A stretch of DNA of 64,000 nucleotides from Candidatus Cloacimonas acidaminovorans str. Evry (GTDB lineage Bacteria; Cloacimonadota; Cloacimonadia; Cloacimonadales; Cloacimonadaceae). The stretch lies in assembly GCF_000146065.2 (NCBI RefSeq), contig NC_020449.1:1464654-1528653 (forward strand), read 5' to 3'. Below the pieces are notes generated by a model. The model was not told the origin of the DNA, searched no databases, and saw only the letters and a list, made by a program, of their open reading frames with translations. Positions 16,097-39,898 of this stretch are shown one piece after another; position 1 is the stretch's first letter, and the number at the start of each line of letters is the position of its first letter. A program made the translations under genes and the position numbers.

Positions 16097-16140
16097 AGTG
16101 AAATGTAGGCAAGCTATAGGTACTTTGCGGAAATGAAAAA

Positions 16141-16399
16141 ATGTGAGTCAGGAACCGTCACTGCCGAAATAACTTATATACTACCCACGAATTTATTTGG
16201 CAGTGAGGACTCGTGACGACCAGAATGAAAAATGAAAAAATTGAGAATTATCAATAAATCTCGGTATCATCAGTGTTCTCAGTGTAAAAAATCTTCTCTC
16301 TTTTCTCTTTCTCTCTTTGTAAAATTCTCCTTTTTTCTCTTTCTCTCTTTTTCTCTTTGTGTAATAATTCTCTCGGTGCTCTCGGTGTAAAAAAAATCT
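16141..16399. repeat. Dispersed repeat, left copy flanking fic
   Basis: It begins ATGTGAGTCAGGAACCGTCA, contains an imperfect inverted pair (GTCACTGCCGAAAT and ATTTGGCAGTGAGGAC) about 40 bases apart, then AT-rich words, CTCGGTG-type words and a T/C tract, ending CTCGGTGTAAAAAAAATC. The copy at 17798-18064 matches it nearly base for base, with small indels. Confidence 0.75.
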
Positions 16400-17656: not shown

Positions 17657-18076
17657 CTCATTAAACCTGCCTGTTTCTTTTAGTTAATTACTCTTTCCTT
17701 CCTATAATTACGCATATTTAAGTCAAGAACTTTATGCGATGGCAAAAAAGATTTATTTTTTACACCGAAATCAGAATGAAGAATGAAAAAGGAAGAAATG
17801 TGAGTCAGGAGCCGTCACTGCCGAAATAACTTATATACTAGCCACGAATTTATTTGGCACTGAGGACTCGTAACGACCAAAATGAAGAATGAAAAAATTG
17901 AGAATTGAGAATTATCAATAAATCTCGGTGTTCTCAGTGTTCTCAGTGCATTCGGTGTAAAAAATCTTTTCTCTTTTCCTCTTTGTAAAATTCTCCTCTT
18001 TTCTCTTTCTCTCTTTTTCTCTTTGTGTAATAATTCTCTCGGTGCTCTCGGTGTAAAAAAAATCTGCTTACCTTCT
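17657..18076. other. Gene-free gap between fic and the beta-propeller gene
   Basis: This 420-base gap contains the second copy of the repeat seen on the other side of fic. The remainder is AT-rich and includes the probable promoter area of fic; I cannot point to a clear promoter. No coding frame is supported. Confidence 0.5.
17798..18064. repeat. Dispersed repeat, right copy flanking fic
   Basis: Same direction and order as the left copy at 16141-16399: ATGTGAGTCAGGAGCCGTCA, the inverted pair around 17815-17870, the AT-rich words, CTCGGTGTTCTCAGTGTTCT, the T/C tract and the final CTCGGTGTAAAAAAAATC. Differences are single bases and short indels, so the copies are close in age or gene-converted. 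Confidence 0.75.
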
Positions 18077-19470: not shown

Positions 19471-20001
19471 ATGATATTAGCAGATAGAAGTGATTATTTT
19501 GGGCAAGGCAAGGGAAAAATTGATCATAAGGACAAAATAATACCCGTAGATGAACTGATGCCCATAATTGAAGATATTAAAGCCATAAGCTTTTATAACA
19601 TTATGAAAGATAATATTTCAGGTAACTATAATGCCTCAGCATTTGAGCCAGATGATGCTCTTGATTGTCGTGATCCTTTTCTCCAACAAGCTTATGAACA
19701 TAATCTGCTTTCAGATAGCACAATTAAAGAAATATACGAATTTGATGAATTTGTTTCTCTCACTCGGTTCCCCCGGAATCATAAGAATTTAAAGAGTGGC
19801 TTAAACCACATTCTTTTGCTACCAATAAAACAACAAAATGAAATGAGTTTTATAGGAACGACAGATATTAACAACGGGTTTCAACCCGGTGATAAGAAAG
19901 CAGAAAAGTCATTATCTCTTTTTCCGACAAAGAGGGGCTGTCTCACAACCTCCCAAAAGTCCATTTTTTGCCATTTTCAGGTATACAAAGATGTATCCTA
20001 A
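19471..20001 (+). pseudogene. Open frame of unknown function, probably a decayed gene running into repeats
   Basis: A 176-residue frame starts MILADRSDYFGQGKGKIDHK. The first ~125 residues look protein-like (DALDCRDPFLQQAYEHNLL, IYEFDEFVSLTRFPRNHKN), but I recognise no family. The remaining part is translated from the palindromic repeat (INNGFQPGDKK) and the MITE-like element, so the real C-terminus has been lost or replaced. No good ribosome site precedes the ATG. It is best treated as a fragment of an older gene truncated by repeat insertion; a spurious frame is also possible. Confidence 0.3.
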
Positions 20002-20072
20002 AGAGGAGATTGTTCCTTAAAATGGCTTATATTTACTGTCTCAAAACTAACTTTTAGTTTCGGGACAGCCCC
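19934..20072. mobile_element. 139-bp MITE-like element with GGGGCTGTC termini
   Basis: GGGGCTGTCTCACA at the left end matches, inverted, GGGACAGCCCC at the right end over about nine bases. The last ~35 bases contain a second inverted pair (CTGTCTCAAAACT and AGTTTCGGGACAG). It lies inside a copy of the palindromic repeat: the left flank is the repeat body and the right flank (GACAGATGTTAGCCC) resembles its end, so it interrupts a pre-existing unit. It carries no coding frame of its own and lies 45 bases beyond the transposase remnant, whose ends it may represent. Confidence 0.45.
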
Positions 20073-20117
20073 GACAGATGTTAGCCCAAGTTTCGCAATT
20101 ATCAAGCTAAAGTATTG

Positions 20118-20747
20118 TTAAATAAGACAAATTATTTTTTTTGCATACTTCAATCTATATTTTTGTGATACCGTATTTTTGGAAACCTTGATATTCAAAA
20201 GGGAATAGATTTTCTTCGCTTTTGCCTCAGGTTGGGTTGTTTGTTTGTTTCTAACTCTATAAACATCTGTAGTATTGAATATTGTATCAGAACACATATA
20301 GGTTTGCAGGATTTGTTTGATGCTTTTCCAGCTAATATGAACATCTTCAAGTGCCAGTTTATAAGTTATACTTTTCAGAATAGCGTACGCTAAAACGGAA
20401 TAGAACAGATGTACCTTTATCCGACCATCTTTCTGATGATAAATAGGTCTTGTTCCTATTTCGGTTTTCATACTTCTGAAGGCAGCTTCAACTTCACTCA
20501 TATTCATATAAAATTTCCAGATTTCTTCAGCACTGAAATCTGTATGGTTGGTTTCAATTACATATCAACCTGGAAACTCAGCTTTGCAGGATTTCTGATG
20601 CCGATCAGTTATTATGAGAGATTCTATCCTCGGAGGAGCAGAATTGCTTGGCTGGAGTTGAATTTCATAGTTAGCTGCTGTAGAACCATATTTCTCTTTC
20701 AACCGCCCAATCTTTACCCCAATCTTGTCAGTTGTGGAGATATTCAC
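20118..20747 (-). pseudogene. IS1634/IS4-type transposase fragment with an in-frame stop
   Basis: Reading on the minus strand, KIGRLKEKYGSTAANYEI is followed, in the same frame, by a TGA at 20565-20567, then YVIETNHTDFSAEEIWKFYM and MSEVEAAFRSMKTEIGTRPI-YHQKDGRIKVHLFYSVLAYAIL. The latter is the C-terminal catalytic region of DDE transposases of the IS1634 kind, including the conserved E-x-x-FR-x-MK and RP-IYHQ...RI motifs. The N-terminal half is missing; the remnant is cut off near 20,810, exactly where the lone decayed CRISPR repeat begins. The element is inactive. The gene is in the opposite direction to the neighbouring + strand frame. Confidence 0.8.
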
Positions 20748-20805
20748 TTTAGTAATGGAAGGTAGGATAATAATTATCTACTATTGGCTTATTTGCCTTT
20801 GTTGT

Positions 20806-21066
20806 CTACGGTTTCAATCCTTGTTTTAATGGAATGTAGGGTGAAAATTCTATCGCAATTAAGCCACCGATGGAGAATGTTTCCAAGGCAGCGAATAATG
20901 CAACATAGGAAGCATTATCTATTTTTTTAATGAACAACTGAAGTAATAGAATAATAATAGCAATCGCAGATAAGAGAAAGATTGCTAGAAGGATACATTC
21001 AATGATAGATAAGATTGCTGCTTTTTCATTTTTTTTTCCTTTTTTCTCGGGTGAATTTGTTTTCAT
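20806..21066 (-). CDS. Small membrane protein ending in the decayed CRISPR repeat
   Basis: From the ATG at 21066 the product is about 86 residues: a Lys-rich start (MKTNSPEKKGKKNEK), a long hydrophobic helix (IIECILLAIFLLSAIAIIIL) and a second hydrophobic segment (YVALFAALETFSIGGLIAI). The last ~12 residues (SPYIPLKQGLKP) are read from the degenerate CRISPR repeat, so the original C-terminus was probably different. The start overlaps the end of the Cys-rich gene upstream. An upstream start in the same frame (21138) is possible but would run through that gene. The function is unknown; size and neighbourhood fit a phage-type small membrane protein (inference). Confidence 0.45.
   Translation of the reverse strand: MKTNSPEKKGKKNEKAAILSIIECILLAIFLLSAIAIIILLLQLFIKKIDNASYVALFAALETFSIGGLIAIEFSPYIPLKQGLKP
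20811..20848 (-). repeat. Isolated degenerate CRISPR repeat
   Basis: The sequence starts GTTTCAATCCTTGTTTTAAT and matches the 38-bp array repeat with five substitutions, four of them in the part that is the 5' half in the crRNA sense. It lies 1113 bases beyond the array's last regular repeat and abuts the transposase remnant. It is the likely terminal repeat of an older, longer array. Confidence 0.8.
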
Positions 21067-21280
21067 ATTTCGGACACGGGTCGGGTAATTCCTTTTTTCC
21101 TTTATGCACATCGGCAGAAACCGTGTCAATTGCATCATTATAATAATTGCAATGATTATAGTTTCTATAGCAGGTATAGCACTGCCGTATCCTGTATGCC
21201 TCCATCATTTGTCCTACCAGTCGTGATTCGTTGTATTCTTTGCCCAATGAGCATATAAGTCTATCTTTTTCATTATTCAT
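21026..21280 (-). CDS. Small Cys-rich protein of unknown function
   Basis: This 84-residue protein has four to five cysteines (RQCYTCYRNYNHCNYY and DPCPKY) that could bind a metal, and a basic tail (KFTREKRKKK). The ribosome site AGGAGGT is strong and well spaced before the ATG, which favours a real gene. It lies between the nuclease-like gene and the small membrane protein, all on one strand and closely packed, a phage-like arrangement. No family is recognised. Confidence 0.55.
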   Translation of the reverse strand: MNNEKDRLICSLGKEYNESRLVGQMMEAYRIRQCYTCYRNYNHCNYYNDAIDTVSADVHKGKKELPDPCPKYENKFTREKRKKK

Positions 21281-21386
21281 TGTTACCTCCTATGTAATCA
21301 ATGATGACTTCTAAGTTATAATTTTGTATGACTTTATTATCCGGTGTAATCAATTTGTATATCGTATTACCTAGTATTCATTTCAA

Positions 21387-21703
21387 TCATTTTCTGGTAA
21401 TTTTTCGCACGATATAGAATGACTTATTTATTCCGTTTATTTTCTTCCGGTAATCCTCTTGGTGTTCGGAAAGTTTATTGTAGCCGAACTTGAATTCTAA
21501 ACAGTAGTTACCAGAATTTTTCACCAGAATACCATCAAAGGAGCGTCTTAATTCATCAGACACCCCTCTTTCTTTAATCAGCCGCAATCTTTTCCCAGTC
21601 ATTATCGGGTCGGGTATTTTCACATAAAGGCATTTCTTTATTTTCGCACGCCACGCGAATTCCTCTTCAAATGCCTTTTCTGGTTTCTTATTTTTTTTTT
21701 CAT
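21387..21703 (-). pseudogene. VRR-NUC/PD-(D/E)XK nuclease-like gene with a frameshift in a poly-A tract
   Basis: The C-terminal reading (from 21623) is RRSFDGILVKNSGNYCLEFK followed by FGYNKLSEHQEDY, a D...ExK nuclease core like that of VRR-NUC proteins in phages. A start codon at 21703 overlaps the stop of the upstream dnaC-like gene (ATGA), but after it comes a run of ten A residues at 21691-21700 that puts the rest out of frame; eleven As would give one continuous frame including PEKAFEEEFAWRAKIKKCLY. This is a frameshifted gene, a sequencing or assembly error, or a slippage site. VRR-NUC proteins are Holliday-junction-type nucleases often found in replication modules. Confidence 0.55.
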
Positions 21704-21961
21704 TTCACTATCTCTGCGTGACTTTTTCTATAAGAATGCGGATTCAAGTAAAGTATCGTTAATTGACCTATAATGCGGTCAAACAGGCAGTCACCGTATC
21801 TATTTCTCAGTTCTTCTGAATTCAGATTCGTGGTGATAATGAATCCTGTATTTCTATTCAGCTCTAACACTTTCAAGAAAAGGATTACTGCATTGGCTAC
21901 TTTAGCCGCATCTTTATCTTCTTCCGTTCCTATATCATCAGGATAATAGTGCCTAAATCTT
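21700..21961 (-). pseudogene. DnaC/IstB-type helicase loader, C-terminal half only
   Basis: Directly after the array's last repeat the minus-strand frame reads RFRHYYPDDIGTEEDKDAAK, which resembles the Walker B region (DDIGTE) of DnaC-type loaders. GFIITTNLNSEELRNRYGD (sensor I) and FDRIIGQLTILYLNPHSYR follow. The N-terminal half with Walker A is absent: the frame upstream is CRISPR repeat sequence. DnaC-type ATPases load replicative helicases and are common in phages and IS21 elements. The stop overlaps the start of the nuclease-like gene. The sharp boundary with a regular repeat suggests recombination at a dnaC-derived spacer, or simple decay. Confidence 0.65.
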
Positions 21962-24900
21962 GTTTCAATCCTTGATTTAATGGACTGTAGAGTAAAAACC
22001 TCTCGCTTAACCAAGTTGCCCAGCCAGTAATCATCGTTTCAATCCTTGATTTAATGGACTGTAGAGTAAAAACTGCTGAGAGCAGATACCTCTTCGTATT
22101 TGCTCTTGGTTTCAATCCTTGATTTAATGGACTGTAGAGTAAAAACGTTGTGGTGTAATAAGTCGTTATTTATTGATGTATAGGTTTCAATCCTTGATTT
22201 AATGGACTGTAGAGTAAAAACCCCGCATTTATCATTTTAGTAAGAATGAATTGCAAAGTTTCAATCCTTGATTTAATGGACTGTAGAGTAAAAACCCTTA
22301 TTTCCCGATTTCGCAAACCGAGAATAAGGAGTTTCAATCCTTGATTTAATGGACTGTAGAGTAAAAACTGAAGGGCGTCAAAGCTGCTATATCTTTGAAT
22401 TTATGTTTCAATCCTTGATTTAATGGACTGTAGAGTAAAAACAGAACAAAGATACAGGTCTTTATGCACGCATAACAGGTTTCAATCCTTGATTTAATGG
22501 ACTGTAGAGTAAAAACAGGAATTTTAAGTTGTGTAAAAATTAAAGTCTTTTAGTTTCAATCCTTGATTTAATGGACTGTAGAGTAAAAACAATAGGAGAA
22601 ATGTTCACTCCTGCTCTAGAGAGCGGTTTCAATCCTTGATTTAATGGACTGTAGAGTAAAAACCTTGCCCCTGCTACTTGATAGCGTATTCCAATATCGC
22701 GTTTCAATCCTTGATTTAATGGACTGTAGAGTAAAAACCCAAATCCGGTATCACATTTGCGGCAATAAATTTTTGTTTCAATCCTTGATTTAATGGACTG
22801 TAGAGTAAAAACTATATAATTCAGGTTGTAGACCCGCACGATAGCAGACGTTTCAATCCTTGATTTAATGGACTGTAGAGTAAAAACGCAGACAAAAAAT
22901 CGGATAATGAATATGAATAGAAGGTTTCAATCCTTGATTTAATGGACTGTAGAGTAAAAACACAATAGAATTGGAGGATAAATGAGAAGGTTAATAAGTT
23001 TCAATCCTTGATTTAATGGACTGTAGAGTAAAAACTTAAACTCTCAATTAGGGAATCATAATTATTAGAAGGTTTCAATCCTTGATTTAATGGACTGTAG
23101 AGTAAAAACGGAAGAGAAAAATAGATATAAGCAAATCAGAGGATAAGTTTCAATCCTTGATTTAATGGACTGTAGAGTAAAAACACATAGGCAGCAGGGG
23201 TAAAGACAGTAGTATCATGATGTTTCAATCCTTGATTTAATGGACTGTAGAGTAAAAACGCAATTCACCACGGAACACAGCAGTTGCCTTGGCATGTTTC
23301 AATCCTTGATTTAATGGACTGTAGAGTAAAAACAAAAAGGTCTTTCTCGCATCCCTTAATTCTGATGGTAGTTTCAATCCTTGATTTAATGGACTGTAGA
23401 GTAAAAACCACTTCTTATGGCTATCCCATCAGCTTCTTCCGTGGGTTTCAATCCTTGATTTAATGGACTGTAGAGTAAAAACATGGAAGGTCGAGTATCC
23501 ATTTTTCAATTGCTTTAGAGTTTCAATCCTTGATTTAATGGACTGTAGAGTAAAAACCCTCATTATCCCTCACCTCCCATCCGATGCAATTCTGTTTCAA
23601 TCCTTGATTTAATGGACTGTAGAGTAAAAACTATTCACAATGAACTTTCACCCTACTTATTTGCCCGGGTTTCAATCCTTGATTTAATGGACTGTAGAGT
23701 AAAAACTATTTGTGGTCATTGGTTAAAAGAGCCGGCTGGGAGTTTCAATCCTTGATTTAATGGACTGTAGAGTAAAAACCGGTTCTTCCTTCACTATGAT
23801 GTAGTCAACCATTGTTTCAATCCTTGATTTAATGGACTGTAGAGTAAAAACAAAGACCGCTGGGTTTCCCAGCGGTCTGTAGATTCAGTTTCAATCCTTG
23901 ATTTAATGGACTGTAGAGTAAAAACGCTGACTTTCGTTCTCGCGTTTTCGCGAGAGAGGACGTTTCAATCCTTGATTTAATGGACTGTAGAGTAAAAACC
24001 CCAATCGCCTTGCAAATCCTTCACATTGGGCTCAGTTTCAATCCTTGATTTAATGGACTGTAGAGTAAAAACCCGCCTCTCCCACCGGAAATACCCGTCC
24101 ATTCATAGTTTCAATCCTTGATTTAATGGACTGTAGAGTAAAAACACTGAAACTTTTTGCAAGAATTTTTGCTGTAAGTTGGTTTCAATCCTTGATTTAA
24201 TGGACTGTAGAGTAAAAACACTGAAACTTTTTGCAAGAATTTTTGCTGTAAGTTGGTTTCAATCCTTGATTTAATGGACTGTAGAGTAAAACTATTGTAA
24301 GTTCATATTTATAGTCTTCGCTAACATTGTGTTTCAATCCTTGATTTAATGGACTGTAGAGTAAAAACACCGAGTAAGAGTGATATTCGGGTCAGCTCAA
24401 GATTGTTTCAATCCTTGATTTAATGGACTGTAGAGTAAAAACTTGATTTGTGTTATCCACAATTTCCAAAATTTCCTCGTTTCAATCCTTGATTTAATGG
24501 ACTGTAGAGTAAAAACCATAGTGTTGTGTAATATGATTCCAGGTTACATTATGTTTCAATCCTTGATTTAATGGACTGTAGAGTAAAAACACCATATATA
24601 CGCCTTCGCACAGTTTACCACTAATGGTTTCAATCCTTGATTTAATGGACTGTAGAGTAAAAACATCTTCCCAGCGATCGTTGCTGGGGAGGGAAAAGTT
24701 AGTTTCAATCCTTGATTTAATGGACTGTAGAGTAAAAACAATGTTATTTTTTCCACACTCCCTTTTTCTGTCAAGGTTTCAATCCTTGATTTAATGGACT
24801 GTAGAGTAAAAACTTTTACGTGCATTATTATTGATGACTTGTGGGTTGTGTTTCAATCCTTGATTTAATGGACTGTAGAGTAAAAACGGATTTTCCCAGC

Positions 24901-27900
24901 GGTCTCAATGAGATGTGAAGGTGTTTCAATCCTTGATTTAATGGACTGTAGAGTAAAAACTAACTACTGGTAATTACTGTACAATAGATTATCGTGTTTC
25001 AATCCTTGATTTAATGGACTGTAGAGTAAAAACCAAGTCCACAAATGGATAGTTTGGGTGTCTTACTTACGTTTCAATCCTTGATTTAATGGACTGTAGA
25101 GTAAAAACAGAGTTGTCTCTTGTTCACCTCGTCATTGGAAGAATAGTTTCAATCCTTGATTTAATGGACTGTAGAGTAAAAACAATCTCATTCAGAGGTT
25201 GACTCGTTAATTTTTTGTGGGGGTTTCAATCCTTGATTTAATGGACTGTAGAGTAAAAACGTCTGGAAGGCACCGCAAGGTGGGGGGGGTGTCTCGTTTC
25301 AATCCTTGATTTAATGGACTGTAGAGTAAAAACACCGTCTGATCCTTATGAATCAGCAATGGTTAGGTAGTTTCAATCCTTGATTTAATGGACTGTAGAG
25401 TAAAAACTCTGCTACCGAAAAAGCGCAGAATTGGAAGGTGTATGTTTCAATCCTTGATTTAATGGACTGTAGAGTAAAAACCTCTGGAAGGCACCGCAAT
25501 GCGGGGGGGGATGTCTCGTTTCAATCCTTGATTTAATGGACTGTAGAGTAAAAACTCATTCTTACTAAAATGATAAATGCGGGGATAAATGTTTCAATCC
25601 TTGATTTAATGGACTGTAGAGTAAAAACTTTTTATTGTGTTATTTTTGCACACCCTGTTTTCCGTGTTTCAATCCTTGATTTAATGGACTGTAGAGTAAA
25701 AACAATGAAATTGATGAGAGTTTGCTTCCAGAGATAACAAGTTTCAATCCTTGATTTAATGGACTGTAGAGTAAAAACGGAATAAATTTTTTACTTCTTC
25801 TGACCCATCGTGAAGTTTCAATCCTTGATTTAATGGACTGTAGAGTAAAAACATTTGGTAATGAAGGCAATGGATATACTGGAGGACGGGTTTCAATCCT
25901 TGATTTAATGGACTGTAGAGTAAAAACAAGACGCAGGAGATTCAGGAAATCATTCGCGAAAGGCGTTTCAATCCTTGATTTAATGGACTGTAGAGTAAAA
26001 ACAGTATTAGTAATCAGTTATGGCGGTAAAGAAATACTAGTTTCAATCCTTGATTTAATGGACTGTAGAGTAAAAACGTTTCCTATTTTCCTTGGAATCC
26101 GATGCGCTGTGAGTTTCAATCCTTGATTTAATGGACTGTAGAGTAAAAACACGAAGGCCGGGAATGCCCAGCCATCACGTGCCCAGGTTTCAATCCTTGA
26201 TTTAATGGACTGTAGAGTAAAAACTTTTTCCCGTTGCAATGATTGTCTTAAGCGTTTTCCAGTTTCAATCCTTGATTTAATGGACTGTAGAGTAAAAACG
26301 AACAGTGAAAAAAGAATGGTTACCACGGAAGAAGGTTTCAATCCTTGATTTAATGGACTGTAGAGTAAAAACTCAAAAACAGCCGCGCGGAAAGCGAGGC
26401 AAAAGGAGAGTTTCAATCCTTGATTTAATGGACTGTAGAGTAAAAACATGAATGACCACTCAACGGTAAAACCATTATCCTTGAGTTTCAATCCTTGATT
26501 TAATGGACTGTAGAGTAAAAACTTTATGATTCTATTTTCACGGACCCCCTTTTTCCGTGTTTCAATCCTTGATTTAATGGACTGTAGAGTAAAAACATAT
26601 ACAAACCTATGCATTCACTAATTTATTTATGAGTTTCAATCCTTGATTTAATGGACTGTAGAGTAAAAACTTAAGGAACTGGATGAGGATACGGAATTAT
26701 GGCTCGGTTTCAATCCTTGATTTAATGGACTGTAGAGTAAAAACGTAATTGTTTGGAATTTTTTATTGCGAGTAGATTATGTTTCAATCCTTGATTTAAT
26801 GGACTGTAGAGTAAAAACGAAAACAAAACAATTTCTGATTCCGGAAAACTTTTCAAGTTTCAATCCTTGATTTAATGGACTGTAGAGTAAAAACAAGAAG
26901 CACAGCTTATTTATGAATGGACTGGAAAATGTTTCAATCCTTGATTTAATGGACTGTAGAGTAAAAACATAAATATAAAGAAGGAATACCAGGGGATGAT
27001 ATACCGTTTCAATCCTTGATTTAATGGACTGTAGAGTAAAAACTAAAAATAGATGACTTTGCCATTACATCTTTATTGTGTTTCAATCCTTGATTTAATG
27101 GACTGTAGAGTAAAAACTTTTTTTTGCCTTATATATTATAGGAATGGAAAAAAAGTTTCAATCCTTGATTTAATGGACTGTAGAGTAAAAACAAGCTGAA
27201 CCGAGTAAGAGTAATATTTGGCTCTGCGTTTCAATCCTTGATTTAATGGACTGTAGAGTAAAAACTTTATGATGCCATTCTCCCACACCCCTTTTTTTCG
27301 TGTTTCAATCCTTGATTTAATGGACTGTAGAGTAAAAACCGTTGGATGCCCTTGTAGATTTTGTTTCAGGAAATCGTTTCAATCCTTGATTTAATGGACT
27401 GTAGAGTAAAAACTGCAATCTATAAAATTCATATACCAGTTATCTCTTGTTTCAATCCTTGATTTAATGGACTGTAGAGTAAAAACACAGTCCCTGGGAA
27501 TTAGAAAAGGAGCAGATTACTAGTTTCAATCCTTGATTTAATGGACTGTAGAGTAAAAACATTGCATTTTTGTTCGTCTATATAAGCATTTCCATGTTTC
27601 AATCCTTGATTTAATGGACTGTAGAGTAAAAACATACCCGTCCAGGAGGGACCAATTAACGGGAGAGGGTTTCAATCCTTGATTTAATGGACTGTAGAGT
27701 AAAAACATTCTTTCGATATAGCCAAAGCAACTTCATTCTTGGGTTTCAATCCTTGATTTAATGGACTGTAGAGTAAAAACCATTTTTTAACTGCCATTTC
27801 TTTTTTCTCCTTTTTTGTTTCAATCCTTGATTTAATGGACTGTAGAGTAAAAACATTCATTGATATTATTTTCAAATTTGCTATTGAAGGGTTTCAATCC

Positions 27901-30900
27901 TTGATTTAATGGACTGTAGAGTAAAAACATGCTTTGGATTTATGCTTTGAATGCGTATTTGGGGTTTCAATCCTTGATTTAATGGACTGTAGAGTAAAAA
28001 CCTTAACATAGCCAAAGTTTGCATATATAAGTAAGAGTTTCAATCCTTGATTTAATGGACTGTAGAGTAAAAACCAAGAGCTGTTTCTTATGCGTGCAGA
28101 GATTTATTGTTTCAATCCTTGATTTAATGGACTGTAGAGTAAAAACTAGAGACGATTGTTATGGACTTACTCTTAGCGTTTAAGTTTCAATCCTTGATTT
28201 AATGGACTGTAGAGTAAAAACTTATGAATCCAATACCCAGCCATTATTTCTACCATGTTTCAATCCTTGATTTAATGGACTGTAGAGTAAAAACTATAGA
28301 CCCCAAGAGGATTAAGGAGGAAAAATGGCAGTTTCAATCCTTGATTTAATGGACTGTAGAGTAAAAACAACTTTTCGATATGACAGGAAAAAATCCTAAT
28401 GATCTGTTTCAATCCTTGATTTAATGGACTGTAGAGTAAAAACCTTTGCCTTGGCCTTTGGCTTTGCCTTTGGCCTTCGTTTCAATCCTTGATTTAATGG
28501 ACTGTAGAGTAAAAACTCTGTTACACAGAAGGTAAAAAATTGGGAAATATATGTTTCAATCCTTGATTTAATGGACTGTAGAGTAAAAACCCGGTAACCG
28601 ATACCACTACTCCTGCATCCGGTAAGTTTCAATCCTTGATTTAATGGACTGTAGAGTAAAAACGGTCTGGAAGGCACCCAATGCGGGGGGAGGTGTCTCG
28701 TTTCAATCCTTGATTTAATGGACTGTAGAGTAAAAACTTTTTATTGTGTTATTTTTGCACACCCTGTTTTCCGTGTTTCAATCCTTGATTTAATGGACTG
28801 TAGAGTAAAAACTCTTCTGCGATGACATTGACTATGGAATTCGCGAAATGTTTCAATCCTTGATTTAATGGACTGTAGAGTAAAAACAGATGAATTCCTT
28901 CCCAATTTTGACACTCATTCCCTAGTTTCAATCCTTGATTTAATGGACTGTAGAGTAAAAACATTCACGTCCATAGAGTTGGTAATAATGGACTTGATCG
29001 TGTTTCAATCCTTGATTTAATGGACTGTAGAGTAAAAACAGAAAGAATGAAAACAATTCAAGCTTTATTAGGAGCGGAGTTTCAATCCTTGATTTAATGG
29101 ACTGTAGAGTAAAAACTGGAGTAAATCCATCTGCTTCTCGTTCGCGGAAAAGTTTCAATCCTTGATTTAATGGACTGTAGAGTAAAAACTTAAGCGCTTT
29201 CCGAAATATGAGACCAGTCCCGTAAGTTTCAATCCTTGATTTAATGGACTGTAGAGTAAAAACTCCATGTGTAGTGATATACCGAAAAAATGGGAAAGGT
29301 TTCAATCCTTGATTTAATGGACTGTAGAGTAAAAACAAAATTGACCCGAATAAGAAGAATATTCGGGTCTGCGTTTCAATCCTTGATTTAATGGACTGTA
29401 GAGTAAAAACGCTACGGATACCACGAAAAAGCGGAAGACGGAAGGAGTTTCAATCCTTGATTTAATGGACTGTAGAGTAAAAACTCCGCGGCAAGCCAAG
29501 GCCAAGCAAAGGCATATATAGTTTCAATCCTTGATTTAATGGACTGTAGAGTAAAAACTGCGGGCAATGGAATAGATATTGACGCAGAAAAAAAGTTTCA
29601 ATCCTTGATTTAATGGACTGTAGAGTAAAAACGATTGCACGGGAGATAGAGGTCAAAGTAATAGCTATGTTTCAATCCTTGATTTAATGGACTGTAGAGT
29701 AAAAACAGAGTCCTGAGACGGAGTGGAATCCTGAGAAGGAGGTTTCAATCCTTGATTTAATGGACTGTAGAGTAAAAACGAAAGATGAAGACAGGAATAT
29801 AGTAGATATACATCGTTTCAATCCTTGATTTAATGGACTGTAGAGTAAAAACCTTATGATAACGAAATTCTTGTCCTTTCTTAGATAGGTTTCAATCCTT
29901 GATTTAATGGACTGTAGAGTAAAAACTACTGGAGAGTTGACCAGCATTGAACCTGATAGAGGGTTTCAATCCTTGATTTAATGGACTGTAGAGTAAAAAC
30001 AGAAAATGCTAATGAATATTTCTTTGAGACACAAGCGTTTCAATCCTTGATTTAATGGACTGTAGAGTAAAAACTGGAAGGAAAAAGGTATCCTGATATG
30101 GTTGAAAATGGGGTTTCAATCCTTGATTTAATGGACTGTAGAGTAAAAACAAGAATAGGTTATGAGTTATACTTATTGGCATTGGGTTTCAATCCTTGAT
30201 TTAATGGACTGTAGAGTAAAAACTAGCCCTCAAAAGGACTAAGGAGGTAACCGATGTCAGTTTCAATCCTTGATTTAATGGACTGTAGAGTAAAAACAAA
30301 GTTTGCTTACCAGTAACGGGGTACAGAAACTTTGTTTCAATCCTTGATTTAATGGACTGTAGAGTAAAAACTTTATGGGCAACTCAATTGGAATATATTG
30401 TAGAAGCGTTTCAATCCTTGATTTAATGGACTGTAGAGTAAAAACTGCATAGGAAGCTATTAGGTCTTTGAATTCATTGAGGTTTCAATCCTTGATTTAA
30501 TGGACTGTAGAGTAAAAACTAGTTTGGTATGCTTACAGGTTTCCACTCTATTTTATGTTTCAATCCTTGATTTAATGGACTGTAGAGTAAAAACTGAGTA
30601 TCCATTTCTCCACTGCCTTCTTAAGAAGGGGTTTCAATCCTTGATTTAATGGACTGTAGAGTAAAAACTTGAATTGTTTTCATTCTTTCTTCAGTTGAAT
30701 CAGTGTTTCAATCCTTGATTTAATGGACTGTAGAGTAAAAACAGCAAGAAAAGATTATCTCTGGTTAAGCTCAGCAAGTTTCAATCCTTGATTTAATGGA
30801 CTGTAGAGTAAAAACGGGCCTGTAACCACAATTCTCAATAATGTATTGGTAAGTTTCAATCCTTGATTTAATGGACTGTAGAGTAAAAACTGACAACAGG

Positions 30901-33900
30901 AAAGATTGTAAACGTTATCCCCGATAGTTTCAATCCTTGATTTAATGGACTGTAGAGTAAAAACAAGTATGAGTTTGATTGTGGATGGTCTTTCCGCCAT
31001 TAGTTTCAATCCTTGATTTAATGGACTGTAGAGTAAAAACCCTTTATTCCGAGTATCCATTTCTCTATCGCTTTAGAGTTTCAATCCTTGATTTAATGGA
31101 CTGTAGAGTAAAAACTGTAGCTAAAATCATTCTGGGAAAATACAAGTTGTGTTTCAATCCTTGATTTAATGGACTGTAGAGTAAAAACAGTATGAGTTTG
31201 ATTGTGGATGGTCTTTCCGCCATTAGTTTCAATCCTTGATTTAATGGACTGTAGAGTAAAAACTTTTTAGACTGTAAGGGTAAAATCCGAGGAAAAATGT
31301 TTCAATCCTTGATTTAATGGACTGTAGAGTAAAAACTTTAGTCCTCTTTCGGTTAGCCGAAAGAATGAAAGTGTTTCAATCCTTGATTTAATGGACTGTA
31401 GAGTAAAAACTGAAAAGATGTCAAAATACTTTGATTTGAAATCAGTGTTTCAATCCTTGATTTAATGGACTGTAGAGTAAAAACTCCTTTCTTAGATAGC
31501 AACGCCATTCATTATTAGTTGGTTTCAATCCTTGATTTAATGGACTGTAGAGTAAAAACAGTTTGGTATGCTTACAGGTTTCCACTCTATTTTATGTTTC
31601 AATCCTTGATTTAATGGACTGTAGAGTAAAAACGGAATTAGTCAAAAGCTCACTAATTCCGCAATCATTGTTTCAATCCTTGATTTAATGGACTGTAGAG
31701 TAAAAACTTGTTGTTCCTTCTTCAATGGAGTTAGTTGATGCTCTGTTTCAATCCTTGATTTAATGGACTGTAGAGTAAAAACACGCGCGGATCCGGTTCC
31801 ATTATTTGCCAGTAAGTTTCCGTTTCAATCCTTGATTTAATGGACTGTAGAGTAAAAACCTTGACAGGAAAAATAGGTCCGTGAAAATAGCGTCATGTTT
31901 CAATCCTTGATTTAATGGACTGTAGAGTAAAAACCTATCCATAACATCACTGTCTACCTAAACCAAGACCGTTTCAATCCTTGATTTAATGGACTGTAGA
32001 GTAAAAACAATAACATCATCAAAAATAGCCAAGACAAAGCTTGGGTTTCAATCCTTGATTTAATGGACTGTAGAGTAAAAACAATAATGGTTGCATTGGC
32101 ATTTTCTTTGACTTTTTCAGTTTCAATCCTTGATTTAATGGACTGTAGAGTAAAAACTTATGGGGGTATTCTATTCCTTGCACTTTTCTATGTGTTTCAA
32201 TCCTTGATTTAATGGACTGTAGAGTAAAAACTCAAAGAAAATGATTGGAGAATTGCCTAATGAATAGTTTCAATCCTTGATTTAATGGACTGTAGAGTAA
32301 AAACGCAAGATTGGTGTTATCCCGATATGGAATCCAATTAGTTTCAATCCTTGATTTAATGGACTGTAGAGTAAAAACTTATTTCTATGCTGCTGTCCAG
32401 CTTGCGCATCCTGTGTTTCAATCCTTGATTTAATGGACTGTAGAGTAAAAACACAGAAAGCGGGGTATTATGATTTAGTTATAGAACTAGTTTCAATCCT
32501 TGATTTAATGGACTGTAGAGTAAAAACATATGGACAGCTGATACTTATACCGAAGCAACCCTGTTTCAATCCTTGATTTAATGGACTGTAGAGTAAAAAC
32601 AATGTCTGTCTGGACTGTCTGTATATCTGGCTCATGTTTCAATCCTTGATTTAATGGACTGTAGAGTAAAAACATTTTTGAATTATTTTTATTTTCCTTC
32701 ATCAGGCAGTTTCAATCCTTGATTTAATGGACTGTAGAGTAAAAACTGTTGTCTGAATGTTTTACCATTTTTAATTTCATATTGTTTCAATCCTTGATTT
32801 AATGGACTGTAGAGTAAAAACAAAATCAGGGGATTCCATCCCCGCCTATAGGAGGATGTTTCAATCCTTGATTTAATGGACTGTAGAGTAAAAACGTATG
32901 AAGCTTACAAATGCGATTGAGAAGGCTATCGGTTTCAATCCTTGATTTAATGGACTGTAGAGTAAAAACGATAGGTGTGAAGAAGTTCAGATGTTCTATT
33001 TTGAGGTTTCAATCCTTGATTTAATGGACTGTAGAGTAAAAACATCATCATCCGATATTACTGTTCCATTTTCAATAAGTTTCAATCCTTGATTTAATGG
33101 ACTGTAGAGTAAAAACATATATGCATTAACCATTTTCTCGTCATAGCTTGACATGTTTCAATCCTTGATTTAATGGACTGTAGAGTAAAAACCCGTATAG
33201 TTCGTTATGATCTTCCAGAGTAATTTGGTTTCAATCCTTGATTTAATGGACTGTAGAGTAAAAACCGGAGCATTGTTCACTTCACGCTTTCATATTTGGT
33301 AGTTTCAATCCTTGATTTAATGGACTGTAGAGTAAAAACCTATCGGCACTTTTACTCCATATATCGGCAATTGAGCGTTTCAATCCTTGATTTAATGGAC
33401 TGTAGAGTAAAAACTTTAGCCGCCGCCTTTCCGGAAATTTACCGGGAGCAGTTTCAATCCTTGATTTAATGGACTGTAGAGTAAAAACCACATACGCACT
33501 GCATGCTGCGGCACATCTCCCGCCAGTTTCAATCCTTGATTTAATGGACTGTAGAGTAAAAACTTTGATCTTGAAGAGATGGGCATGGATATGCCAGAGA
33601 GTTTCAATCCTTGATTTAATGGACTGTAGAGTAAAAACACTAATGGCTGAAATGCTTTGGGGCTTTGGCGGAGGTTTCAATCCTTGATTTAATGGACTGT
33701 AGAGTAAAAACCCGCTTGCATTGAAGGACTCGATAAGGAATTCTTCAGTTTCAATCCTTGATTTAATGGACTGTAGAGTAAAAACTGTGCCAGCACCACC
33801 TATTCCACCAGTGGCTAATCGTTTCAATCCTTGATTTAATGGACTGTAGAGTAAAAACCGGAATAATATCTATTTCATCAATTCCTGCATCCGGTTTCAA

Positions 33901-34299
33901 TCCTTGATTTAATGGACTGTAGAGTAAAAACACAACGGAGCGAATGCACGAAATATTCAATGCAAAGTTTCAATCCTTGATTTAATGGACTGTAGAGTAA
34001 AAACGAAGGAAAAGGGAGCTATCCCAATTATCCTCAGAGGTTTCAATCCTTGATTTAATGGACTGTAGAGTAAAAACGGTTAGCGGAGAGGCAGGTGGAA
34101 AAATATATTATATGTTTCAATCCTTGATTTAATGGACTGTAGAGTAAAAACAATTCTTCAATACCCTGGTGCCAAAGTGGGATGGCTGTTTCAATCCTTG
34201 ATTTAATGGACTGTAGAGTAAAAACCCGATGCCGAAGTGTCCCCACTCTGCTGTTTTTTCAGTTTCAATCCTTGATTTAATGGACTGTAGAGTAAAAAC
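21962..34299 (-). CRISPR. Type I-B CRISPR array, about 167 repeats
   Basis: A 38-bp repeat (crRNA sense starts GTTTTTACTCTACAG and ends AAGGATTGAAAC) recurs with a mean period of 74.1 bases. Counting by hand I find 167 repeats and 166 spacers, mostly 35-37 nt, range about 34-39. The ATTGAAAC end is the usual 5' handle of I-A/I-B crRNAs, so transcription runs on the minus strand away from the cas genes; the newest spacer is beside 34299. Repeats are nearly invariant; one (24256-24292) lacks one A. There is no decay toward the distal end inside the array. Spacers show duplicates, related families and reverse-complement pairs described in the findings. Confidence 0.98.
24256..24292 (-). repeat. 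Variant CRISPR repeat, one base short
   Basis: This repeat reads GAGTAAAAC where all others I inspected read GAGTAAAAAC, so it is 37 bases. It immediately follows a tandemly duplicated spacer, which suggests the slip and the duplication arose in one replication or recombination event. Confidence 0.8.
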
Positions 34300-34769
34300 T
34301 CATCTTCTTATATAAGTGCCTCACAAATAACAAACTTAAACCGGTTTTTCAGATAATCCAAACTGATAGTTTTGATAAAAAACCAGCTCCCAAATGAGCC
34401 AAAAGGCAATTTCGGGCAGGCACAAACACTCTATAAATCTATAAAAGAGCGAAAAAGTACCAAAAAAATCAATAAATTCTTCTTAGATTAAGATAAACGG
34501 TATCTTTAAAAAGCAAGTATAATGTTAATTTTTTCATCCAAATTAAAACAATATCTTATCTTTAATGATAAGGGACGAAAGTAAATTAGCATTAATAGTT
34601 CTCACCATAAATCTATGGATTCCACATCAAGGGTGGAATGATAACACCATTAAATTAACTAATGATGTTTTATTCATTCTAACGGCAAGAGCTGGATTTC
34701 CATAATTTTCTTTCTTATTCCAGCAAACACTCTATACATAAAAAACATATATGTGAATAAATCTCATAT
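34300..34769 (-). promoter_or_regulatory. CRISPR leader region
   Basis: This 470-base AT-rich gap lies between cas4 and the first repeat and contains no gene. Its position next to the adaptation genes and the 5' end of the crRNA-sense repeat identify it as the leader, where new spacers are inserted and the array is transcribed. Near 34517-34522 the minus strand has TATACT, a possible -10 element, without a convincing -35 at proper distance. At 34613-34633 a short hairpin (ATTCCAC...GTGGAAT) resembles the one at 339-358. Leader boundaries and promoter are inference. Confidence 0.75.
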
Positions 34770-35360
34770 TCAGACAGAGCACAAATTCCGATAAGTGCAG
34801 TCCAGGCATTTTCTTTTTGCTTTGGCAGGTTTTGGATATTTTTCCAAGTTAATTATCATAAAAATCTCGTCAAGGATCAATTTAGCTTTATCCAGCATTT
34901 TAGGAGTGATAGCCAATTCTTCCAGATGGTTTTGAGATCTGGTATACACAATAAATGCTTTATACACCGGAACCTGAAAGTTTTCCATAATCAGAAGCGC
35001 ATAGAGGATTTGTTGATATTTAAGGGTCTTATAGACCTTATTTTCCCAAAAGGCATATTTATAATCCAGGGGTGCGGCACTGCCATCTGCCAGGAAAAGA
35101 ACTTCATCAACTTTTCCCACCAGTTTCAATTTTTCGGAGGAAAGATAAACATCAGTAAGTTTATCAATAGCGCCTGCTTTTTTACGCAGATATTCCTTAT
35201 TTTGCACCATTTTCAATTTATGAATATCTCTGCCTTTATTTACCAGGGTTCTTCTGTGTTCATGCTGTTCAATTTTCAGGATGTTCATATAATAAACGAA
35301 ACGAGGGCAGAAGAGATATTCCATCACTTCGGAAGGAGTGATAAACTGAAAATCGTTCAT
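34770..35360 (-). CDS. cas4: CRISPR-associated exonuclease Cas4
   Basis: The 196-residue RecB-family nuclease has an N-terminal FLFCPRFVYYMN cysteine, a central nuclease core with APLDYKYAFWE (the D...xExK-like region) around residue 95, and the C-terminal KCLDCTYRNLC cysteines that complete the iron-sulfur cluster. Cas4 trims prespacers and helps choose PAM-proximal ends during adaptation. It overlaps the end of cas2 by four bases and is the last gene before the leader, an order (cas1-cas2-cas4) less common than cas4-cas1-cas2. Start and length are normal. Confidence 0.95.
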   Translation of the reverse strand: MNDFQFITPSEVMEYLFCPRFVYYMNILKIEQHEHRRTLVNKGRDIHKLKMVQNKEYLRKKAGAIDKLTDVYLSSEKLKLVGKVDEVLFLADGSAAPLDYKYAFWENKVYKTLKYQQILYALLIMENFQVPVYKAFIVYTRSQNHLEELAITPKMLDKAKLILDEIFMIINLEKYPKPAKAKRKCLDCTYRNLCSV

Positions 35361-35647
35361 AAGAAAAATGCCTTAATTTCATCTGTAATAAGAGCGGGAT
35401 CAAATGCTTGACCAAGCAATTGACAGCTTTTAAAGTCCTCATTGCACATTGGGAAAATATAAACCCGGTCTATTTCAGGATTGATTAGTTCCTCAATCTG
35501 ACAGCTTAATTCTTTGCATTTGGTGCGGCTAATTTCCCCCAAAAAGACAGAATATTGAACTCTGTATATTCCGGCTTGTTCACAGCATTTGGAAACTTTA
35601 TTCCGGATTTTGTCTTTAACGATATCATACATCACCCAAGTTAGCAT
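35357..35647 (-). CDS. cas2: CRISPR-associated protein Cas2
   Basis: The 96-residue protein begins MLTWVMYDIVKDKIRNKVSK, with the conserved first-strand Asp, and continues GIYRVQYSVFLGEIS as the typical Cas2 core, ending with IDRVYIFPMCNEDF. Cas2 forms the bridge in the Cas1-Cas2 integrase that inserts spacers. The start lies seven bases inside cas1 with GAAGAAG upstream. The length is normal. Confidence 0.95.
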   Translation of the reverse strand: MLTWVMYDIVKDKIRNKVSKCCEQAGIYRVQYSVFLGEISRTKCKELSCQIEELINPEIDRVYIFPMCNEDFKSCQLLGQAFDPALITDEIKAFFL

Positions 35648-36699
35648 TCTTCTTCTCCATTATCTGCAAAATTGCTGTTCAGGAAATTTTGCAGTTTTCT
35701 ATTAATTGAGGTTTCCAGATAGTTTTCCCTTTTATCAATTAAGAAATTGGCAAAAGCGTGAGCATCGGTTTGAATCATATCAAGGCGTTTGCGATTTTTA
35801 TTACGGTACCGAATAATTTCATCAAAATGTTCTAATAACAAAGGAGCCAGAAATTTTTTCCCCGTCGTGCTAAGTAAAACACCTTGATGAACCGGTTCAA
35901 TGAAATAAGGAGAAAATTTATGCCGGGAAAAAATGTAAAAAACGGGCTCATCCACCAAAATACGATAGGGCTCTATAAAATCAAAGACAAAGGACTTCTT
36001 ATTGTAATTATCACTATGCAAAAGCCCCAAGTAGGGATCAAGACCAGCAATAATTAAAGCTCTCTCCACTTTAGAATAGAGAATGCCATAACCATAATTC
36101 AACATAGCATTGAAAGCATCTTTAGCAGGACGCGAACTTCTGCCCTCAAATTTATATGCATCAGGGATCAATTCTGCCAAAATGGAAAAATAATTCTTGG
36201 AAGCACCTCCTTCCCAACCCATAAAAGAACCGGAAAGTTCTTCCAATTTGCCTTCTGCCTGCATTATACAAATAGCAGCTTCCTGCATATTTTGCATCCG
36301 GGTTTGAAAAATACTTTTATCGCAATCCCGTTTAGAAATTAAACGCTGCACAAAACGATATTGATTCATTATTTTTATGGCAATCCAATCCTTGATGAAT
36401 TGCAGACCTACATTATCAGAAAGCATTTCCAGTTGCCTTCTACGAATTAAAACAGTACTCCCAATTTTAGGAAACCAAATCCTGCCATAAGGAGAGCCAT
36501 ATTTATCCAGAAAAACAATATCAATATTATAATCCATCGCCAATTGAATGGCATCCGTAGTTATTGTAGCCGCATTGGAAATAACAATGGAAGATATCTT
36601 TTCCGGAGAGAGCTTGGTTTTTCTATCCTCAATGCTCAATTCAAACATTTCGTCTTTTTTGCGTAAGTAACTGCCGTAAGTATTTAAGTGGACTTCCAT
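35641..36699 (-). CDS. cas1: CRISPR-associated integrase Cas1
   Basis: The protein of about 352 residues opens with VHLNTYGSYLRKKDEMFELS and contains IVISNAATITTDAIQLAMDY and, in the catalytic half, LIPDAYKFEGRSSRPAKDAF and NAMLNYGYGILYSKVERALI (the Glu of this helix), AGLDPYLGLLHSDNYNKKSFVFDFIEPYR (given here in pieces: GLLHSDNY supplies the His and FDFIEPYR the Asp/Glu). Cas1 is the integrase of spacer acquisition. I chose ATG 36699, which overlaps the cas3 stop by one base; a TTG one codon earlier also exists. The length is slightly above the I-B average. Confidence 0.95.
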   Translation of the reverse strand: MEVHLNTYGSYLRKKDEMFELSIEDRKTKLSPEKISSIVISNAATITTDAIQLAMDYNIDIVFLDKYGSPYGRIWFPKIGSTVLIRRRQLEMLSDNVGLQFIKDWIAIKIMNQYRFVQRLISKRDCDKSIFQTRMQNMQEAAICIMQAEGKLEELSGSFMGWEGGASKNYFSILAELIPDAYKFEGRSSRPAKDAFNAMLNYGYGILYSKVERALIIAGLDPYLGLLHSDNYNKKSFVFDFIEPYRILVDEPVFYIFSRHKFSPYFIEPVHQGVLLSTTGKKFLAPLLLEHFDEIIRYRNKNRKRLDMIQTDAHAFANFLIDKRENYLETSINRKLQNFLNSNFADNGEEEC

Positions 36700-39110
36700 C
36701 AAAGAGCCAAACAGCTTGATTTAGCTGTAGAATATAGTTTAAAACCAGTTGAACATTCGTAAAAATCTTCTATGAATTCAGAATCTATATAATAGATGTG
36801 GTCATTTAGTTTTTTGACTTTATAGGAATCGTAAATAACAGAAAGTTCATTGGGTGAAAGAGTTATTTGATATGAGTTCAAAGCACGATATTCTTTTTCC
36901 AGAGCTGTTTTAATTTTTTGAATTTCCTCTTTAGGAAGTTTAGTATTTTTCAGACAATCCAAATACCCTATTATAGATGATATTGCATTAGTAGAGGTAT
37001 CGTCACAAAGAATATACACCGTCTCGGTAGCATAATCATCAGAAATAAGCTTAAAATCAGCAATGGGAACTTGATTTTGAATGTTTTGATCATAATTAAG
37101 ATCGGAAATCGCTCTTAAAATGGCTTCACCTTTAGCGCCTATATCAAGAATTTGATAATAGACATCTATAATATGAGAAAACTGACGACTTTCTAAGGAA
37201 GTGAATTGCTCCAAGCATTCTTTTGTTTTAGATAGCAGATATTTATCATATACATAATGGCTTAATAACCTGCCATCTTTTTGTAGATTGACCAAAAACA
37301 TTTCTCCGCCAAGTTCACCTAATTCATTATTCCTGTTGCATCTACCTGCAACCTGGATAATACTATCTAAAGGACCAAAATCACGATATACCCTTTGAAA
37401 ACTTAAATCCACACCCGCTTCAACCAATTGGGTAGAGACCAAAATTACTTTTTTCTGAATTTCTTTTAGAATTGTATTAATTTTGTCTATAATTTCCTGC
37501 CTGTGTATAGGAATATGCAATGTAGTTAAACAGAAAACTTGATAGGAGGATTGATAATTAGAAGAAAGATAATTATATACAGCAAGAGCGGAGCGTTTTG
37601 TATTCATTACAATTAAAATGCTTTTTGCGTCATTAAATTCCAGGAAATTTTGGCAAAACTCATCTACGGATTGTTCCTTCAGATTAATATAAAGTTTCAC
37701 ACGATTAAAATCGGGAACCGAGAAAAGTTCTTTCTTGCATAATTCTATGTATTTACCATCAGGATAAAGATAAGGTTGAGTGGCAGAACAAGAAAGAATG
37801 TAAGTATCAAATTTTTCAGCAAGAACCTTAAATACAACTCTTAATAAAGGATAGTAATCAGCGGGCAAGTTTTGCACTTCATCCAGGAGAATTATAGAAT
37901 TAATAATATTATGCAGCTTACGAACCATAGCATTTCTATTTCCAATTAGGGAATGAAACAATTGAACAAAAGTAGAAATAACACAGGCAGATTCCCAGGA
38001 TTCAATAGACAGGATATCTTTTTGCAATTCCTCCCAATTGTAGGTTGGCTCGTCTTTTGTAATTGCAGAATAATCTACCAGATGATGATGTTTTACTAAA
38101 AATCTGTAATCTAAGTTTGTTTTTTCATTGAGATTAGATAGTAATACATTTTCAAATTCCTGATAATTTTGGTCTATAATAGAAGTATAAGGAAGGCAGT
38201 AAATAACTCTTCTTAAATTATCTTCATAAGATTGAATAAGATCAGTAAATTCTAAGCAGGCAAATGTTTTTCCACTTCCGGTAGGGGCAGTTAAGGTATA
38301 TAGTTTTTGGGAAGGCGTAATATTTTGGTTACTTCTGATATTATCTATAAATTGATTTCTTAAAGTGTTTAATGCACTTTGTATCTTATTCTTTTCCGCA
38401 ATTTTTTTTGCCGGTGAAAAGCTTAGCTTTGGATTAAGCTTCTCCAAAAATACATATTCTTTAACAGCTGCGTTATGTTTATCTGCATCTATAAGAACCG
38501 AAAATAAAAGATTTTGGATTAAAAATGATTCTACTGCTTCATCTATATTAGTAGGAGAATAATTAAGAGAAAACTCCTCCAAATTATCACTCATAAATTG
38601 AAACGAATTATAAGACAATTCCGGTAAGATGATATTGTGTTTTTCCAGGAGTTTTTTTAAATCAACATCATTATTTATATTTTCCCATACACTCTTATAG
38701 ATAGTAAGTGTTTCATCAATAAGCGCTGCATTATTAAGATCCTCTCCCCAAAAAGAACTTAAGTTACTATGATGCTTTTGCACACATTTAAAAGCATTAG
38801 GAGCAAAAGAAGAATATTCTTTCCAAGAATGGAAATTGAAAAAAGTAATAACCGCCGAAATATAACTATGATGTGTTAAATTATTACGATTTCCACCTCG
38901 GACATAATTTTGAAAATAGGAAGATGCCTTCCCCAGATCATGCATAATCCCAATTTTTTCTGCAACGAAAGCTAATTTATCTTTAGTGGTAGTAGTTAAG
39001 TTCAGGGAAAGCTTTTGGATCATCTCTTTAGCATCAGACGCTACTTCAGCTAAATGATCTACCAAAAGCTTTTCCTGATATCCGTTTTTTGCAGGATGGG
39101 AAATAATCAC
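36699..39110 (-). CDS. cas3: CRISPR-associated helicase/HD nuclease Cas3
   Basis: The 803-residue protein starts with the HD nuclease domain: LLVDHLAEVA, then GIMHDLGKASSYFQNYVRG, and HHSYISA. A superfamily 2 helicase follows: TAPTGSGKTFACLEF (Walker A, about residue 285), LLDEVQNLPADYY (DEVQ box), SCSATQPYL, and VEAGVDLSFQRVYRDFGPLD with IQVAGRCNR (motif VI). Cas3 is recruited by Cascade bound to its target and unwinds and degrades the invading strand. The start overlaps the cas5 stop by four bases (ATGA). All key residues I could look for are present, so interference is probably functional. Confidence 0.96.
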   Translation of the reverse strand: MIISHPAKNGYQEKLLVDHLAEVASDAKEMIQKLSLNLTTTTKDKLAFVAEKIGIMHDLGKASSYFQNYVRGGNRNNLTHHSYISAVITFFNFHSWKEYSSFAPNAFKCVQKHHSNLSSFWGEDLNNAALIDETLTIYKSVWENINNDVDLKKLLEKHNIILPELSYNSFQFMSDNLEEFSLNYSPTNIDEAVESFLIQNLLFSVLIDADKHNAAVKEYVFLEKLNPKLSFSPAKKIAEKNKIQSALNTLRNQFIDNIRSNQNITPSQKLYTLTAPTGSGKTFACLEFTDLIQSYEDNLRRVIYCLPYTSIIDQNYQEFENVLLSNLNEKTNLDYRFLVKHHHLVDYSAITKDEPTYNWEELQKDILSIESWESACVISTFVQLFHSLIGNRNAMVRKLHNIINSIILLDEVQNLPADYYPLLRVVFKVLAEKFDTYILSCSATQPYLYPDGKYIELCKKELFSVPDFNRVKLYINLKEQSVDEFCQNFLEFNDAKSILIVMNTKRSALAVYNYLSSNYQSSYQVFCLTTLHIPIHRQEIIDKINTILKEIQKKVILVSTQLVEAGVDLSFQRVYRDFGPLDSIIQVAGRCNRNNELGELGGEMFLVNLQKDGRLLSHYVYDKYLLSKTKECLEQFTSLESRQFSHIIDVYYQILDIGAKGEAILRAISDLNYDQNIQNQVPIADFKLISDDYATETVYILCDDTSTNAISSIIGYLDCLKNTKLPKEEIQKIKTALEKEYRALNSYQITLSPNELSVIYDSYKVKKLNDHIYYIDSEFIEDFYECSTGFKLYSTAKSSCLAL

Positions 39111-39886: not shown

Positions 39887-39898
39887 ATCTTTCCCCCA

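Follow-up and report, generated by a model that had tools for sequence, protein, structure and literature searches.

The window, a 64-kb stretch of DNA analysed from a single-contig genome of 2,246,820 bp, carries a CRISPR-Cas locus in which the cas genes, the leader, and the array follow one another on the minus strand (Table 1). The array has its leader end at 34300 and its old end at 21962. Repeats of 38 nt alternate with spacers of 34–39 nt (166 spacers, modal length 36 nt), giving a period of 74 bp, and 166 of the 167 repeats are identical, the sole exception, at 24256, having two changes. Cas5h, Cas7/Csh2, Cas3, and Cas4-Cas1-Cas2, together with the repeat end ATTGAAAC, assign the system to type I-B. 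The profile matches of Csh2 (3.3e-57), Cas3, Cas1, Cas2, and Cas4 lie above their NCBIfam cut-offs, and that of Cas5h lies under its cut-off. No second array with the same repeat was found elsewhere in the genome. Within the array, two spacers (22221–22252 and about 25555) overlap by ~29 nt on opposite strands, so that both strands of one target were sampled. Two spacers are present twice (24107–24256; 25628 and a later copy), and one of these duplicated pairs is adjacent, beside the variant repeat at 24256, whose last two letters are CT.

At the old end, the last of the 167 regular repeats (21962–21999) is followed by an insert of phage-like DNA and then by a variant repeat in the same orientation as the array. 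The insert occupies 1,113 bp, in agreement with the gap of ~1.1 kb reported by the initial annotation, which is not an integer multiple of the repeat-spacer unit. Starting from the array side, it contains a DnaC-like fragment, then a nuclease-like gene and two ORFs, the first Cys-rich and the second for a small membrane protein, with open reading frames extending to both flanking repeats.

Table 1. Features of the CRISPR-Cas locus and of the insert at its old end, in coordinates of the window.
Feature	Position	Strand	Remarks
IS1634-family transposase, 3' remnant	20118–20752	-	5' part missing; one internal stop
Truncated older repeat relic	20737–20774	-	5' half (20753–20774) kept; transposase-side DNA in place of the rest
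Spacer of the old array segment	20775–20810	-	36 nt (CGTAGACAACAAAGGCAAATAAGCCAATAGTAGATA), between two old repeats; length equals the modal spacer length
Small membrane-protein ORF	20806–21066	-	Two hydrophobic segments; enters the old repeat and stops just past it
Older-version CRISPR repeat (distal repeat)	20811–20848	-	ATTTTCACCCTACATTCCATTAAAACAAGGATTGAAAC; 5/38 differences from the array repeat
Phage-derived insert	20849–21961		1,113 bp, in place of array units
Cys-rich ORF	21026–21280	-	84 aa
PD-(D/E)xK (VRR-NUC-like) nuclease pseudogene	21275–21703	-	Poly-A frameshift; two in-frame TGA
DnaC-like helicase loader, C-terminal part	21700–21961	-	Cut at or just before Walker B; PHROG 3277 E = 2.6e-9, PHROG 50 E = 1.9e-7
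CRISPR array	21962–34299	-	167 regular repeats and 166 spacers; type I-B
Leader region	34312–34486	-	76% identity to G001
Type I-B cas genes	34770–43474	-	cas4, cas2, cas1, cas3, cas5h, cas7/csh2, and two unnamed ORFs (NCBIfam)

The initial annotation had read the first of these ORFs as a DnaC-type loader, which the PHROG 3277 profile bears out; the match begins at DDIGTE, residue 8. Its further claim, that dnaC coding runs right from the repeat edge, is not supported by the alignments. The first seven residues beside the last repeat are RFRHYYP, and DnaC database alignments start at residue 8, with the exception of one profile alignment that starts at residue 6; a Pro precedes the Asp pair of Walker B. 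The next gene, annotated as a VRR-NUC-like nuclease, has a D-x12-ExK / HQ pattern in common with an intact homologue, and the shared D, ExK, and HQ residues suggest a PD-(D/E)xK nuclease; however, neither Pfam nor the named PHROG profiles gave a VRR-NUC match, and the ORF is broken. The reading frame is disrupted by a run of 10 A at the start of the ORF, and towards the end two TGA codons in frame come before IYKLITPDNKVIQNYNLEVIIDYI, which resembles CYDIEQKGKRIQRFYNLEEIFRFF in the C-terminus of the intact homologue. The 10-A frameshift could alternatively be a homopolymer sequencing error. Sequence searches found no relative of the Cys-rich ORF and no convincing relative of the small membrane ORF, and Rfam gave no match. 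No integrase gene is present among the ORFs of the insert, which speaks against an integrase-mediated prophage.

The nuclease homologue is a 140-aa protein (L060:8114–8536) encoded directly after the DnaC gene in a phage-type contig of a relative (G050:C86), where dnaC and the nuclease gene are intact and stand in the same order as in the insert; the two nucleases are 30% identical over 134 residues (E = 7e-9). Upstream of dnaC, the contig encodes a RecT-like annealing protein (E = 3.1e-60), a metal-dependent hydrolase, and a replication-initiation protein. By this matching gene order, the insert is a piece of a phage-type replication module; its relation to a mobile element holds at the protein level only. 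A second nuclease match (G040) was rejected, as it sits in an unrelated ATPase gene. A search of 60 related genomes and 50,697 phage records found no DNA relative of the insert, and DNA and protein searches of IMG/VR, INPHARED phages, GTDB genomes, and 125 genomes of the phylum recovered no close phage source, yielding only distant DnaC relatives and the one nuclease homologue. The intact phage module that the initial annotation had proposed to search for is therefore represented by the dnaC–nuclease order of G050:C86, but not by a source phage. None of the spacers of the array itself or of the sister arrays matches the insert beyond chance. No PAM was derived, since credible protospacers were not recovered for any array spacer (the search in relatives covered ~65 of the 166 spacers).

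The distal repeat had been described as isolated, decayed, and carrying five mismatches. The five mismatches and the array orientation stand, whereas the repeat is neither isolated nor merely decayed. When 106 further genomes of the order were scanned with a relaxed repeat pattern, there were 0 matches, the control counts being likewise 0, which rules out the chance match that had been considered as a refutation. In arrays of the same genus, the repeats are ATTTATATCCTACTATCCATTAAAACAAGGATTGAAAC (G001) and ATTTTTAACCTACTATCCATTAAAACAAGGATTGAAAC (G002), and at positions 1, 9, and 25, three of its five differences, the distal repeat has the state common to both sisters; random mutation would give sister states at three of five differences with P about 0.0004. 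Polymorphism is frequent in terminal CRISPR repeats and falls mainly at their 3' end (PMC8047081). The distal repeat has an unaltered 3' end, with changes in its 5' part and middle, which argues against an ordinary decayed terminal repeat. Furthermore, the repeat version switches abruptly at the insert, the 167 repeats on one side being near identical. A lone divergent repeat can be misread as decay, and comparison with sister arrays reveals it as an older repeat version. In the arrays of three relatives (L137, L138, and L139), the terminal repeats have the same 3'-altered form, ...GGATTGTCCC, a conserved terminal form.

At a distance of exactly 74 bp from the distal repeat, one period of the array, there is a second repeat, which is truncated. 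It matches the old repeat and the sister repeats at 24 of 38 positions overall and at 18 of 22 in the retained half; among about 100,000 positions outside the array, the best other match to this half reaches 16/22, and the match of the whole relic is unequalled at 20,000 random sites. The relic and the distal repeat share states at positions 1, 9, 15, and 25, of which position 25 is outside the well-conserved half. The relic stops where the IS1634 transposase remnant starts (NCBIfam NF033559, E = 1.4e-27, profile positions 354–482 of 483; related copies occur in G008). An origin of the relic as a by-product of transposase coding was rejected, there being no long alignment of related transposase DNA at this place and no equal match in the window. 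The idea that the distal repeat opens a separate array with a leader of its own was likewise rejected, as no leader similarity is present. The array spacing of the relic and the sister states therefore place the phage piece inside the array, between older and newer repeat versions. The old array end beyond the insert was truncated later, beside the IS1634 remnant.

In G001 and G002, the arrays end beside an Rrf2-nifS-iscU-enolase block. The nifS homologue of the genome studied here lies elsewhere, without an array, and in G002 the left-flank genes of the locus are followed by other genes and no array. Judged by these gene neighbourhoods, the locus has evidently moved relative to the sister species. 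The cas4-cas1-cas2 genes are 87% identical to those of G001 (L161), and the adjoining cas3/cas5 genes have no nucleotide match, an apparent swap of the effector module relative to G001 that is accompanied by a different 5' half of the repeat. The 'spacers' of 124–291 nt in G001 are not long spacers, but assembly runs of N. In addition, several other repeated elements were observed. Positions 19839–20083 belong to a family of short dispersed repeats, of which dozens of copies, often in tandem, occur here and in same-genus genomes, and low-complexity intergenic copies of ~270 bp with 87–97% identity (16131–16399 and 17788–18065) flank a Fic-type gene. Meanwhile, 18 IMG/VR contig stretches (L111–L128) carry the 22-nt core CCATTAAAnCAAGGATTGAAAC, and the 16 that have a single exact copy are candidate type I-B solitary repeat units (RNA anti-CRISPRs). 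Among the 18, the viral contig L123 (IMGVR_UViG_3300005932_000017, about 684–779), has two repeats at array spacing, which correspond to the array repeat of two Cloacimonadota genomes (L138 and L139; judging by their order, G114 and G115); it is a candidate phage mini-array or misassigned host contig.

The 1.1-kb insert is probably the scar of a recombination between a phage and the CRISPR locus. Phage origin and capture inside the array, both already proposed in the initial annotation, are upheld by the module with the same dnaC–nuclease order and by the repeats on both sides. The preferred route is a tentative one, possible rather than probable: phage DNA recombined with phage-derived spacers and replaced the intermediate array units at the old end. 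The phage DNA would pair homologously with two putative spacers from the same phage, one in dnaC by the last regular repeat and the other in the membrane-protein gene by the old repeat, and the 1.1 kb of phage sequence flanked by the protospacers would take the place of the array units between these spacers. Alternatively, the incoming array of a phage-CRISPR hybrid would exchange with the resident old array and produce the same structure, which would also explain the change of repeat version across the insert. A more specific version, in which the insert is a fossil of a natural phage-mediated array exchange, with a phage matching two spacers bridging the newer-repeat and older-repeat arrays and 1.1 kb left as the joint, is rather unlikely.

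In favour of the two-spacer exchange, both flanking repeats are complete, the frames are open to both, and the distal repeat lies within an older segment. The two ends of the insert are unrelated and carry no duplicated spacer remnant, which fits a two-spacer exchange and not a single crossover. The abrupt change of repeat version fits a loss of intermediate units, a loss that could equally result from ordinary repeat-repeat deletion. RecT-like annealing proteins are a class of enzymes that use short homologies, and the RecT-like gene in the related phage contig speaks for short-homology recombination. Against the exchange, the source phage was not found in the searches above, and both spacers are putative only. 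Moreover, given the first seven residues without DnaC alignment and the Pro before Walker B, up to ~21 nt may be leftover sequence of an unrelated spacer. The initial proposal of a single recombination at a terminal dnaC-derived spacer is not supported, as the distal repeat is not terminal, no spacer is duplicated, and the source phage was not recovered.

An illegitimate insertion, in which homology-independent end joining or repair placed a phage fragment within an old-array spacer, where it later decayed, is also possible, if somewhat more doubtful; it is almost as likely as the exchange, because the source phage was not found and most DnaC alignments begin at residue 8, which lies 21 nt away from the repeat. 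A break within any spacer would spare both repeats, and spacers make up about half of the array length; the insert contains pseudogenes, and the neighbouring IS-related rearrangement shows that this array end tolerates rearrangement. However, the ORFs that stay open to both repeats count against such an event, which also leaves unexplained why the repeat version changes just where the phage DNA was inserted. The earlier suggestion of mobile DNA inserted and decayed at the trailer end agrees with the decay, but not with the position of the insert, which is internal to the array. Since effector module and repeat version may have changed together, an array fusion or replacement stays a rival, albeit an unlikely one: new- and old-version arrays would have been joined with phage DNA between them, through transfer of the CRISPR-Cas locus or through chimeric assembly of what is presumably a metagenome reconstruction. 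The repeat versions that differ across the insert, the displacement of the locus from the Rrf2/nifS operon by which the sister arrays end, and the 87% identity of cas4-cas1-cas2 to G001 beside cas3/cas5 without nucleotide match are consistent with a fusion, whereas the contig is a single 2.25-Mb chromosome, the old segment is 1.1 kb away in the same orientation, and the genome has no second array with this repeat.

The distal repeat might also have been carried by the phage as a solitary repeat unit (RNA anti-CRISPR, Racr), which arrived with the phage DNA or mediated the integration of that DNA. Racrs are widespread (PMC10651486), and 16 of the 18 IMG/VR stretches with the same 22-nt repeat core have a single exact copy. 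Nevertheless, the relic at 74 bp makes this very unlikely: a second repeat stands at array spacing and the array is 1.1 kb away, the distal repeat overlaps an ORF, whereas Racrs were sought in intergenic DNA, and recombination between repeats would not put the middle of dnaC beside the last repeat. The least probable explanation of all is an oversized spacer, that is, a 1.1-kb phage fragment integrated as one spacer by Cas1-Cas2. Such an integration would place both insert ends at repeat boundaries, as observed, but it would copy the flanking repeat, and the two flanking repeats should thus have been identical, yet they differ at 5 of 38 positions; in addition, the insert measures 1,113 nt against 34–39 nt in all 166 other spacers. 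If the event was spacer-driven, the locus would hold a natural spacer-phage recombination scar in an uncultured phylum and a type I-B system, beyond the staphylococcal cases, and stored spacers would be sites where phage DNA rewrites immune memory.

Similar structures are known from other systems. In staphylococci, spacers are reported to recombine with the phage sequences that they target (Varble et al. 2019, cited in PMC8616872 and PMC10434264), which, as in the present proposal, joins CRISPR and phage DNA through spacer-protospacer homology; unlike that experimental case, as it is described in the citing papers, only a decayed scar is present here and the spacers are putative. Prophage integration into Streptococcus pyogenes CRISPR loci (Varble et al. 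2021, cited in PMC10651486) likewise places phage DNA in a CRISPR array, whereas, compared with that case as cited, the fragment here has no integrase gene or attachment site. The Racrs (PMC10651486) resemble this locus in having a variant repeat beside phage genes; in contrast, the distal repeat here is accompanied by another repeat one array period away and lies within an ORF. In Sulfolobus solfataricus, CRISPR locus F contains an 899-bp fragment of a pNOB8-like plasmid between two repeats (PMC4390879), so that both loci are otherwise regular arrays interrupted, between two repeats, by ~1 kb of mobile-element DNA. Compared with locus F, the DNA here is phage-like, the host is a bacterium with a type I-B system, two repeat versions flank the insert, and the length is not made up of whole repeat-spacer units. 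The insert thus joins a known kind, the mobile-element fragment between CRISPR repeats, with Sulfolobus as its direct precedent and the repeat-version boundary as its unusual feature.
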